Positions 18,590-22,477 of a DNA stretch of 25,679 nt are shown one piece after another. The DNA lies in IMG/VR virus record IMGVR_UViG_3300037961_000267, positions 1-25,679 of that record; one strand, 5' to 3'. The stretch's first letter is position 1. Each line of letters begins with the position of its first letter. Under the pieces are notes generated by a model. The model was not told the origin of the DNA. It saw nothing but the letters and a program-made list of their open reading frames with translations, and did not search any database. A program made the position numbers and the translations under genes. This stretch comes from a virus.

Positions 18590-19771
18590 TCAGCCGCCGT
18601 AACCAGCGTTGTTGGTAGCGGTTTGGACCGTACCGAACTGAGCCGGAGGAGTGGCGGTACCAGCAAACAGCTCAACGGCTGCAGCGGGGTTGAGGTAATC
18701 TGCCCCCATAGCCAAGCGCCCCAAAATCACATCACCTTGGTATACCACAGAGATGTCACCCGAGGTGACCTGAACTTGAGGTCCGATAGCTTCGACACAA
18801 CCAGCAGCTTCACGTTGGAAGATGAGGCCGCAGGAGTTTGCGAAGTTAGAAGCTTGACCGTAATCGTTGTTGATACCGGTCACGCTATTACGACCATCTT
18901 CAATGGCTTCACCCACGAACGAACCGGTCTCGCCAGGATCAGCGACACCAGGGTTGGTGGCAGAAGCAGTACCAAACTTAGTACCGTACTGAGAGAAGAA
19001 TGGGATGTTCATCGACTTGTAGATCTTGATGCCTGCAATTTCGATGATGCCCTGGCCGCCTTGCAGCGCAGTGCCTTGCTCGTCCCGGTTCACCAATCCG
19101 TTGCTGCCAACAGCTTGGATCAGTTCATAGTATTGGCGAGGGTTAAGTACACCCACGCGACCTTCGGAACTAACACCTTTTTCGTCAAGTGCAGCAGCAG
19201 CGTCATAGAAAGCAGCCACAAGTTTGGCAGAATCGTATGCATCAGAAGCAGCAGTACCAGAGGAACCAACACGAATTTGGGTTCCGCCGGGCTCGATGAA
19301 AGAGGATTTTTGGACAGGAGACTTAGCCCGAGCACCGCGAGTGATAGCGCGGAAGATCAGACGGTCATACTTTTGTGCGAGTGCATAGCCGATCTTTTTA
19401 GAGATCTCGCCACGCAGTTCGTAGTGAGCCAGAGTCTCATCAAGGTCGTAAACGAATGCACTTGAGATCAAGAGATCGTCAACCGTGATGGTCTTCTCTG
19501 CCACCGGAGGTGCACCGTCGGAGTTACCGAGGATTGCATTTCCGGGGGTGTGATATTCAGCAGTGGTGCGGCCCGTGTAGATGAACTGCATGGATTTGCC
19601 GCTCTTCAGAGTACGCTTCATCACCATATCACGGGCGATAGCGTTATACTCGAAGCCTTTGAACATCTCTCCAGAGAAGAGTTTCAAATACAGGGCGCGA
19701 GAATCAGCCGCGCCATTAAGACTACCAGGCCGTGAAAGGCTAGTAGTCAGGTCAGAACTTTGATGTGCCAT
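18590..19771 (-). CDS. gp10: Major capsid protein (gp10)
   Basis: The major shell protein, with 393 residues and the HK97-type fold expected for T7-like capsids. Blocks close to T7 gp10 are LYLKLFSGEMFKGFEYNAIA (about residues 28-47), KRTLKSGKSMQFIYTGRT (about 52-69), EKTITVDDLLISSAFVYDLD (about 92-111) and AHYELRGEISKKIGYALAQK (about 114-133). The C terminus is Gly/Ala-rich. The ATG at 19771 is preceded by TACTCCTTACA, not by an SD sequence, which is odd for the most abundant virion protein. The gene stands alone between a structured leader and a strong terminator, so it probably has its own transcription signals. Confidence 0.97.
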   Translation of the reverse strand: MAHQSSDLTTSLSRPGSLNGAADSRALYLKLFSGEMFKGFEYNAIARDMVMKRTLKSGKSMQFIYTGRTTAEYHTPGNAILGNSDGAPPVAEKTITVDDLLISSAFVYDLDETLAHYELRGEISKKIGYALAQKYDRLIFRAITRGARAKSPVQKSSFIEPGGTQIRVGSSGTAASDAYDSAKLVAAFYDAAAALDEKGVSSEGRVGVLNPRQYYELIQAVGSNGLVNRDEQGTALQGGQGIIEIAGIKIYKSMNIPFFSQYGTKFGTASATNPGVADPGETGSFVGEAIEDGRNSVTGINNDYGQASNFANSCGLIFQREAAGCVEAIGPQVQVTSGDISVVYQGDVILGRLAMGADYLNPAAAVELFAGTATPPAQFGTVQTATNNAGYGG

Positions 19772-20026
19772 TGTAAGGAGTAAAAAGTATTATCTAACTC
19801 CTAAAGCTTTAGGAAAATTTTGTAGCAAATTTTTTGTGGTCTATCCCACCGTCTAGACGGCTAATGGGTATCCGCGTACGGGCCAAAAGCCAAAGCAGGG
19901 CAGGTCCTACTCCGAGGTGCCTGCCCCACAGGCGTGGCTGCTTTCCGGTCAGCCACTCCTTAAACCGTCCTTCGGGCTTTACAATTGTGGAAAGCTCGTT
20001 ACCTTATATGTGAGGGGTGCAGAGGG
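19772..20026 (-). promoter_or_regulatory. Structured capsid-gene leader (intergenic)
   Basis: This 255-bp gap is the only long non-coding stretch in the window. In RNA order it holds a GTGGCTG/CAGCCAC hairpin (19956-19934); GCCTG-TGGGG-CAGGC (19933-19919), which competes with GGGCAGG/CCTGCCC (19926-19898, with an inner CCT/AGG pair); the palindrome CCGTCTAGACGG (19860-19849); GTGG/CCAC (19849-19836); and the palindrome CCTAAAGCTTTAGG (19813-19800). Next to the capsid ATG, AGGAGT (19802-19797) can pair with ACTCCT (19781-19776). No convincing reading frame was found. A role in capsid mRNA stability, processing or translation is inferred. Confidence 0.6.
20002..20020 (-). promoter_or_regulatory. 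Candidate T3/T7-type phage RNA polymerase promoter
   Basis: On the minus strand this reads GCACCCCTCACATATAAGG. The CCCTCAC part equals that of the T3 promoter (AACCCTCACTAAAGGG), and CTCAC followed by an AT-rich stretch and GG resembles the T7 core (CTCACTATAGGG). It lies just after the last mini-gene and upstream of the capsid gene, where T7 has its strong phi10 promoter. Known marine Syn5-type promoters differ, so this is a positional and motif-based guess. It would give a leader of about 230 nt. Confidence 0.35.
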
Positions 20027-20128
20027 TCAGGACTTTTTAGTCTTGGCCTTTTTTTCTCCCTGTTTTTGTGTATTGACTGGACCGTAATAAGTTACGGCAG
20101 CTTTTGCTTTGTTACTTTGATGCGACAT
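20027..20128 (-). CDS. 33-residue basic peptide with TYYG motif
   Basis: A 33-residue frame starting MSHQSNKAKAAVTYYGPVNT and ending in a Lys-rich tail (EKKAKTKKS). It overlaps the preceding peptide gene by 17 nt in another frame and has no SD sequence of its own, so it is probably translated by coupling and would share the riboswitch control. The AVTYYGPV core resembles the LTYRGV core of its neighbour, which may mean distant paralogy or chance. The function is unknown. Confidence 0.65.
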   Translation of the reverse strand: MSHQSNKAKAAVTYYGPVNTQKQGEKKAKTKKS

Positions 20129-20198
20129 TACGCTTGACAACGTAAGCAACGCCCCGGTAGGTCAGGACGACTTCTTTTTTTTGTGCAGTTTGAGACAT
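20112..20198 (-). CDS. Riboswitch-controlled 28-residue peptide (DUF4278-like, LTYRG)
   Basis: A 28-residue peptide beginning MSQTAQKKEVVLTYRGVAYV. The core LTYRGVAY matches the short cyanobacterial DUF4278 type, known mainly for its YRG motif. An SD sequence (GGAG, 6 nt before the ATG) lies directly after the pseudoknot strand of the glutamine riboswitch, so translation is probably gated by ligand binding. In cyanobacteria a related glutamine riboswitch controls a small inhibitor of glutamine synthetase. Whether this phage peptide acts on host nitrogen metabolism is unknown. It overlaps the next mini-gene by 17 nt. Confidence 0.82.
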   Translation of the reverse strand: MSQTAQKKEVVLTYRGVAYVVKRNVASK

Positions 20199-20213
20199 GA
20201 TGAACTCCGAATA

Positions 20214-20265
20214 CCTTACCCCCCGTTCCATGAGTAAGATGCCTGCGTCCCGAAAGGGATGAACG
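20214..20265 (-). promoter_or_regulatory. Glutamine-II riboswitch (downstream-peptide motif)
   Basis: Read on the minus strand, the element starts CGTTCATCCC. Stem P1 is CGTTC (20265-20261) with GAACG (20228-20224). An inner hairpin TCCC-TTTC-GGGA lies at 20259-20248, followed by GACGCAGG. A pseudoknot is visible: TCTTAC (20239-20234) in the P1 loop pairs with GTAAGG (20219-20214), just before the SD sequence. This agrees with the known architecture of the glutamine-binding downstream-peptide RNA of marine cyanobacteria, whose target is usually a short peptide gene. That is exactly what follows at 20198. It would tie translation of that gene to host glutamine, that is, nitrogen status. Confidence 0.85.
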
Positions 20266-20272
20266 TACGGCT

Positions 20273-20746
20273 TCAGTCTAGGAGTTTTTCGTGAATTGGC
20301 CCCATAGTGTCACCCTCCCAGTCGCGTTCAACGCTTGTGGGTGGGATGCCATTTAGCCACTTCTGCACTGACAAGAAGCAGCCACCGTTAGGTCCTACGA
20401 CACCGCCGTGCCAGTCATTGCGGTGAACGTAAACTGCTCTGCCAGTCTTCATTGTCTCTGGTGTACCAATCACTGACCCAGAATGTCTAAAGGTAATGCC
20501 ATGGATAGGTACCTCAAAACTATCTACGTTCGGATGGATGTGATCTGGCACAGGTGCATTGGGTTGTCCAATAAATAGTTGGGTCTGAAACTGTTTGTAT
20601 CTGTGGATAGTATATCCAACAAACCCGTCCATGAAGGTAAGATTATCAGAAGGTGGAAACAGAACGGGTTTTGTCTCAAAGAAAACTTTCATGTAGAATT
20701 CTAAATCAGTTTCTGGTTCAAAATCCCAAACGTCGATAAATTCCAT
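20273..20746 (-). CDS. Cupin-fold protein with candidate metal site
   Basis: A 157-residue protein with a single cupin-like beta-barrel. The first motif is around PDHIHPNVDSFEVPIHG (His69, His71, Glu78) and the second around VHRNDWHGG (His113). These four residues match the usual cupin metal ligands, though the His-to-Glu spacing is longer than in the textbook motif. Cupins range from oxygenases to binding proteins; no substrate can be named here. It is the largest gene in the island between scaffold and capsid. It could be a metabolic enzyme or a structural part. The start has no SD sequence. Its stop is 8 nt upstream of the riboswitch, so upstream transcripts read into that element. Confidence 0.75.
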   Translation of the reverse strand: MEFIDVWDFEPETDLEFYMKVFFETKPVLFPPSDNLTFMDGFVGYTIHRYKQFQTQLFIGQPNAPVPDHIHPNVDSFEVPIHGITFRHSGSVIGTPETMKTGRAVYVHRNDWHGGVVGPNGGCFLSVQKWLNGIPPTSVERDWEGDTMGPIHEKLLD

Positions 20747-21691: not shown

Positions 21692-22477
21692 TTAAAAATC
21701 AAGATCAGATTGTTCTAGTCTTTGCATGACCTCTGCACGGTATGCAGGGTCACGGTCGTACCGTGGGTCTTGCATGGCACGGACAACCTCAGCCTGACTA
21801 CGGAACCCATTAGCGGGTGCCGCAGCCTTGCCTTGTAGAAGTTGCCCCTCCATACCCTCGGCTTCTGTATATCGGTAGTACAAGGCTTGTAGTGCAAGGT
21901 TGATTGCACCTACGTTGCCTGATTCAACTACACCATCAAACGCTTCGATTTCAGCTTGATCAAAGTTTTCTGCTGCCCAGGACACAAGAGCATTGTAGTT
22001 GTCAGCACCCCCAACACTTTGCTGAATCGATGTGACATCAGACTCACTAAGCTCTACGCCTTGTGGTTCTGAACCCATGCGTTCTTGCATTGCAAAGTAT
22101 GCATCGAGAAGTTCCTCAGAGGACATCTCTTTGAGAGACTCTAGTGTCTCTTCAGACAGACTACCGTTTTCATCGTACTCGTCGTTGACGGCTTGAAAAA
22201 ACTCAAGTGCTTCTTCTGAATAGTCACCGCTTTCCTCTTGTGTTTCTCCCTCTGCTTCACCTTCCTGTGCTTCCTCTTGGTTATCAGAACCAAGTTTGCT
22301 TTGCAGTTCAAGGTATGCTTTCTCAAGTTCTTGAGCATCTTTATATTTACCCGCAAGCAATTCATTTTGCTCACGCTCAAGCTGTTCAGCTACAGCAAGG
22401 TTTTCAGCATCACGTGCTTCTGCTGACTGTACGGCTTGAGGATCGTCACTGGGATCGTAGGTTAGAATTTCGGCCAT
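21692..22477 (-). CDS. gp9: Capsid scaffolding protein (gp9)
   Basis: This is the internal scaffold for procapsid assembly, which leaves the shell before or during DNA packaging. It has 261 residues, is strongly acidic and is predicted mostly helical. Glu/Gln-rich segments at about residues 20-90 include QEEAQEGEAEGETQEESGDY, and the C-terminal part is less acidic and ends EVMQRLEQSDLDF. Identification rests on its place directly after the portal, its size and its composition, since scaffolds diverge quickly in sequence. In T7 the capsid gene follows directly. Here about 1.9 kb with nine small genes separates scaffold from capsid. The stop is 2 nt before the next ATG. Confidence 0.92.
   Translation of the reverse strand: MAEILTYDPSDDPQAVQSAEARDAENLAVAEQLEREQNELLAGKYKDAQELEKAYLELQSKLGSDNQEEAQEGEAEGETQEESGDYSEEALEFFQAVNDEYDENGSLSEETLESLKEMSSEELLDAYFAMQERMGSEPQGVELSESDVTSIQQSVGGADNYNALVSWAAENFDQAEIEAFDGVVESGNVGAINLALQALYYRYTEAEGMEGQLLQGKAAAPANGFRSQAEVVRAMQDPRYDRDPAYRAEVMQRLEQSDLDF

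Follow-up and report, generated by a model that had tools for sequence, protein, structure and literature searches.

Glutamine riboswitches have so far been treated as a cyanobacterial device with a few phage examples. In the Glutamine-II class (Downstream-peptide, type-2 glutamine riboswitch) the pocket nucleotides are defined by a crystal structure (PMC6698751), and for one Prochlorococcus copy of the type-2 switch glutamine turns expression on, probably at translation (PMC6316151, PMC6698751). Cyanobacterial glutamine riboswitches also control proteins with DUF4278, the N-terminal domain of the glutamine synthetase inactivator IF17; DUF4278 proteins and the IF17 N-terminus share the YRG..Y motif of the peptide described here (PMC6316151). 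Among phages, OM43 phage Melnitz, pelagiphage Mosig and Prochlorococcus phage AG-345-P14 carry a glutamine riboswitch too; that of Melnitz is described as glnA-like (type 1) and is associated with a tmRNA rather than with a capsid leader or a YRG peptide (PMC9004378). In the open-access papers that we searched, nothing linked cyanopodoviruses, P-SSP7 or DUF4278 to a phage glutamine riboswitch.

The DNA studied here (the window) is the whole 25,679-nt stretch of IMG/VR virus record IMGVR_UViG_3300037961_000267. It contains the minus-strand head and tail operon of a T7-like cyanophage, with genes for portal, scaffold, capsid, tail tubes, internal proteins and tail fibre. An earlier note, made from the letters alone, had placed a glutamine riboswitch between the scaffold and capsid genes of this operon, and the Pfam matches of the flanking genes bear out that position (Table 1).

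Table 1. Features of the window around the riboswitch, with strand and evidence.
Feature	Position	Strand	Evidence or remark
Major capsid protein (T7 gp10-like)	18590..19771	(-)	PF21703, E 7e-75
Capsid-leader RNA: hairpin 19926-19898 and three-hairpin core 19893-19835	19835..19926	(-)	63 nt before capsid ATG
Hairpin with sub-threshold PhotoRC-I match (29.2 bits, cut-off 45)	19930..19979	(+), opposite genes	also in 11 relatives
Second small ORF, 33 aa (phrog_23119), overlapping the end of the YRG ORF	20027..20128	(-)	start resembles MPHQSK... Cys-rich peptides
YRG micropeptide ORF, 28 aa, MSQTAQKKEVVLTYRGVAYVVKRNVASK	20112..20198	(-)	phrog_5049; motif kept with synonymous change in relatives
SD-like GGAG, six nt before peptide ATG	20205..20208	(-)	direct reading
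Glutamine-II riboswitch aptamer, compact form	20214..20268	(-)	RF01704; pocket mapping from PMC6698751; covariation in relatives
Scaffold / capsid assembly protein	21692..22477	(-)	PF05396, E 1e-11

The covariance-model search that the note had proposed as a check was run with cmscan and gave RF01704 (Glutamine-II) as the sole Rfam match in the whole window. The match covers the full model (positions 1-60) and scores 52.4 bits against a cut-off of 33 (E 3.1e-10, or 7.2e-14 when the record was searched alone), and none of 14 control genomes had a match. The RNA class, the hairpins and the pseudoknot all came out as the note had read them. The pseudoknot pairs C20265-C20261 with G20228-G20224, and a long-range pair joins C20245 to G20223, both as read from the sequence. 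P1 is formed by 20259-20256/20251-20248 and the distal stem by 20239-20232/20221-20214; the window has the compact form, in which the P1 loop is four bases long. When mapped onto the crystallised RNA (PMC6698751), the pocket nucleotides C1, G2, U3, C17, G18, C19, A33, A38, C39, G40, G41 and G42 are all found between 20265 and 20222, with the linker C20247 G20246 C20245 as predicted ligand contacts. One structural detail of the note fell: it had the 3' pseudoknot strand abutting the SD sequence, but the strand ends 15 nt before it, with the distal stem between. The folding energy of 20268-20112 alone is ordinary (z 0.23), as is expected of a small and pseudoknotted aptamer.

Both aptamer stems covary in the phage relatives. 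In an alignment of 21 similarity-pruned phage aptamers, built from sequences chosen for an exact core, the covariation score was 0.411 against 0.127 after shuffling, and none of 500 shuffles scored as high. Cells with changes on both sides numbered 49 (10.8 in shuffles), double changes occurred in 10 of 17 pairs, and no slid version of the alignment scored above 0.094. The pseudoknot pairs are invariant across the phage aptamers and hence carry no covariation information; the regular-expression searches fix core nucleotides, so that the search pattern itself accounts for part of the invariance of the core. The covariance-model score together with this covariation excludes a chance match, and by class, as judged from its sequence, the feature is a genuine Glutamine-II riboswitch.

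The phage copies share with the RF01704 RNAs of Prochlorococcus and Synechococcus the covariance model, the pseudoknot, the pocket, a short YRG peptide downstream and a similar spacing. They differ in several marks. Among the matches listed, the P1 closing pair is U-A in 93 of 105 phage copies and in none of 39 host copies, and a CGCA-UG linker occurs in 91 of 105 phage copies, again against 0 of 39; the linker is 13 nt long in most phage copies and 15 nt in most host copies. Furthermore, the phage copies precede a capsid gene and a peptide with one YRG motif (125 of 126 phage peptides, among the matches listed), whereas host peptides found with the same pattern mostly have two to four. By sequence the phage aptamer is thus a recognisable type, distinct from that of the host. 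All pocket nucleotides of the phage aptamer are also present in the crystallised construct (PDB 6QN3, Prochlorococcus sp. RS01), whose U-A closing pair, CGCA-UG linker and linker length are likewise those of the phage type (PMC6698751). Because it bears these phage marks, the RS01 RNA may derive from phage DNA; an exact match of its sequence was not found in viral contigs.

In order to sample relatives with no selection for the RNA, IMG/VR contigs were recruited by capsid protein alone and the whole records searched with RF01704. Among the matches listed, 52 such contigs had 800 nt or more of sequence ahead of the capsid gene, and 48 of these carried a Glutamine-II match at E<=0.01, with 38 above the curated cut-off. 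One of the four contigs with no match (L143) has a nested aptamer, as described below, so that 49 of the 52 listed carry the switch, a share that holds for this clade since the contigs are the nearest relatives by capsid and are redundant. In the full capsid-recruited set, all 60 Glutamine-II matches listed share the strand of the capsid gene and precede it by 222-1076 nt. Of the 22 genomes of T7-like cyanophages in a phage collection, 15 (P-SSP7, P-SSP2, P-GSP1, S-TIP37, S-RIP2 and NATL1A-7 included) have exactly one match above the cut-off, on the capsid strand and upstream of the capsid gene, while P60, Syn5, S-CBP2, 7B11-B, DSL-LC07 and S-SRP01 gave no RF01704 match. A scan of IMG/VR with the aptamer core only found at least 80 contigs with an aptamer and a YRG ORF, 75 of 80 having T7-like cyanophage head or tail genes. 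The earlier note had mentioned a single phage example; the frequencies in the recruited contigs and in the cyanophage genomes do not agree with a rare phage case. The riboswitch and its micropeptide are a near-constant part of the capsid-gene leader in this T7-like cyanophage clade.

A second structured RNA occupies the same leader. Directly before the capsid gene lies a hairpin followed by a three-hairpin core, in which three helices covary (score 0.331 against 0.100). Among the matches listed, sites found with the core pattern have a capsid gene within 200 nt downstream in 75 of 80 cases; two of the others are within 300 nt of a capsid gene and three are near contig ends. In most of the T7-like cyanophages seen (L122-L129, L328-L335 and most capsid contigs), a spacer of 46-107 nt separates this capsid-leader RNA from the capsid gene; the RNA also occurs in phages that have no glutamine switch, and it reaches no Rfam cut-off. 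Its first hairpin is tRNA T-arm-like in some phages, yet an identity as tRNA was rejected, as ARAGORN finds none in the window. In NATL1A-7 (L126 3936-4006) a tRNA-Gly with anticodon TCC stands directly before it. Given this partly T-arm-like neighbour, the aptamer fold might chiefly serve the processing or stability of the mRNA. We regard this as very unlikely, since the ligand contacts and pseudoknot pairs are invariant, although compensatory changes would be compatible with the fold as such, while the stems vary, even though the fixed core is partly produced by the search pattern.

What the riboswitch controls is indicated by the sequence that follows it. In the window the YRG ORF begins 16 nt past the aptamer and contains LTYRGVAY. 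Among the matches listed, a YRG-containing ORF follows all 119 distinct exact-core phage aptamers, a set taken with 150 nt of following sequence in which the ORFs were not picked for the motif; shuffled leads give 0.5%. The ORF is coding and conserved: pN/pS is 0.44 over the nine codons of the peptide core, compared with 1.17 and 1.37 in the other frames, and in a table of ORFs chosen for the motif third positions vary but Y, R, G and Y never do. In several relatives no obvious SD precedes the peptide. The peptide starts at an almost fixed distance from the aptamer core (about 20-27 nt), whereas the distance from aptamer to capsid gene varies several-fold, from 222 to over 1000 nt, and this difference identifies the peptide as the riboswitch target, as the earlier note had proposed for the 28-residue ORF. 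An aptamer that mainly tunes the capsid gene (late head expression), with the peptide ORF as a leader with translation coupling, would also account for the strand and placement fixed in all 60 matches listed and for the second conserved RNA directly before that gene. We consider it unlikely, however, in view of the variable capsid distance, with genes such as gp222 intervening in Tangaroavirus, the near-constant spacing to the peptide and the amino-acid constraint on the latter.

The window peptide matches the profile of phrog_5049, a family of unknown function, at E 1.7e-4. Its single YRG motif resembles the C-terminal end of the two-motif domain DUF4278 (PF14105), to which it scores 17.3 bits against a cut-off of 25.3, over model positions 43-57 of 57 only; the peptides of 13 of 17 relatives also match DUF4278 weakly. 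Hence, in comparison with DUF4278 proteins, the phage peptide has one motif and stays under the Pfam cut-off. The earlier note had spoken of peptide genes after the switch, and for the first of these the YRG motif is indeed a conserved feature. The second ORF was rejected as a second YRG gene: its TYYG is missing in several near relatives, and its start fits a different small family. The counterpart at this site in relatives is longer and rich in Cys: MPHQSKVVKAA...CGHCGDKKPQCRKQKKCLKGLL.

The surroundings of the switch include a slot for cargo genes. Just upstream of the riboswitch, a 157-aa ORF (20273-20746, minus strand), which has no Pfam or PHROG match, occupies the cargo slot that holds psbA in relatives. 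The plus-strand hairpin near the second small ORF scores far under the PhotoRC-I cut-off. PhotoRC-I matches of relatives (G081, G001, G003 and eight others) score 23-29 bits, also on the strand opposite to the genes; the slot of this hairpin is where relatives usually have psbA, and it falls before or after the second small peptide depending on the phage. At locus L050 (638-1982) the riboswitch stands beside psbA and a T7-like RNA polymerase gene, not capsid genes, a layout which suggests that the cassette can move with psbA. In S-TIP37, S-CBP4 and Tangaroavirus no more than about 10 nt separate the psbA stop codon from the start of the aptamer, and the host, too, has riboswitches of this class, so one might see the switch as a passively carried remnant of host or psbA cargo with no current function in the phage. 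That reading is highly improbable: the switch is kept with no psbA in the slot in S28-C3, SS120-1, S-TIP28 and the window, its stems show compensatory changes, the peptide is under purifying selection, and the phage aptamers form a distinct sequence type.

Weak Glutamine-II matches (13-32 bits) were considered as decayed aptamers, an explanation that we rejected for most of them, as these hold an intact gene in the P1 loop. In these nested loci an ORF of 53-60 codons fills the P1 loop; CGTTCA, the 5' pseudoknot strand, precedes its start codon by 3-14 nt, and the linker, the distal stem and GGAACGGG follow directly after the ORF. The isolate S-SBP1 is nested (L127 3624-3830), its annotated gp32 being the inner gene, and further nested loci were found at L137, L139, L143, L148-L150, L157, L176, L179, L180, L183, L196 and L430-L509. 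Among the best 80 of 489 relatives by inner-protein similarity, all 78 loci with both flanks (47 distinct DNAs) have the inner ORF between the two pseudoknot strands and a YRG ORF after the aptamer, and the inner ORF ends in GAC GCA TGA or GAC GCA TAA in 73 of the 78. The stop codon usually falls within the ligand-binding linker (GACGCATGA/TAA), and in the commonest nested type the start codon itself is in the P1 stem. The nested P1 arms form 4.70 contiguous pairs, above all 2000 shuffles (3.56 with shuffled partners), and at the third pair T-A and C-G replace each other.

The inner protein belongs to phrog_628 and its gene is under strong constraint (dN/dS about 0.10; pN/pS 0.20 against 1.7 and 2.4 in the other frames). 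An AlphaFold model of it is a two-helix hairpin (pLDDT 87). In T4-like cyanophages phrog_628 is a free-standing gene, and the copies examined there had no aptamer around them. From the arrangement at the nested loci we infer a two-output switch. With the last codons GAC GCA predicted to form the ligand-binding linker, and the AUG often placed in the P1 stem, closing of P1 and inner-ORF translation should be mutually exclusive: a glutamine-bound aptamer would shut the inner ORF and open the YRG peptide, and an inner ORF occupied by ribosomes would prevent the aptamer from folding. We suggest, tentatively and as the less probable outcome, that the capsid-leader glutamine riboswitch of T7-like cyanophages has two forms, the nested one a reciprocal switch and the compact one a single-output version of a late-infection nitrogen sensor. 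A limited open-access search found no description of an ORF inside an aptamer loop, and we know of no described precedent for a gene so placed that joins two reading frames to one ligand.

For the locus as a whole, the best explanation, to which we assign a probability of roughly 0.7, is that the window carries a genuine Glutamine-II switch that acts as an ON switch for the YRG micropeptide and is near-constant in the capsid leader of this clade. By homology with the Prochlorococcus copy, at high glutamine the bound aptamer would most likely turn on translation of the adjacent one-motif peptide, so that the late head transcript would yield the peptide only under plentiful glutamine. In ViennaRNA ensembles of 118 leaders, computed both for the free RNA and with the aptamer folded, the SD was not consistently masked in the free state: its mean openness was 0.41 free and 0.46 with the aptamer folded (0.63 and 0.67 in the window). 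The missing SD sequestration in these models counts against the ON-switch explanation, as do the relatives that have no obvious SD, the sub-threshold DUF4278 score of the peptide and the T7-like cyanophages that lack the switch.

The peptide resembles the end of DUF4278, the IF17 N-terminal domain, and an action on host nitrogen metabolism is therefore a reasonable guess. It would act by mimicking or competing with the multi-motif YRG (DUF4278-type) proteins of the host, perhaps as a one-motif competitor. Glutamine sensing late in infection and an action on host nitrogen control, both put forward in the earlier note, would fit the ON behaviour of the Prochlorococcus homologue.

If this reading is true, a large part of a very common group of ocean viruses, P-SSP7 included, carries a nitrogen sensor in its capsid leader, through which the nitrogen state of the host may be read late in infection, and this metabolite sensor comes with an unstudied micropeptide. 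Existing isolates would then make it possible to test a standing question, namely how viruses that infect nitrogen-starved cells of the ocean adjust to the nitrogen state of their hosts. The gene-in-aptamer-loop form, if true, would be an unusual way of linking a single ligand to two reading frames.
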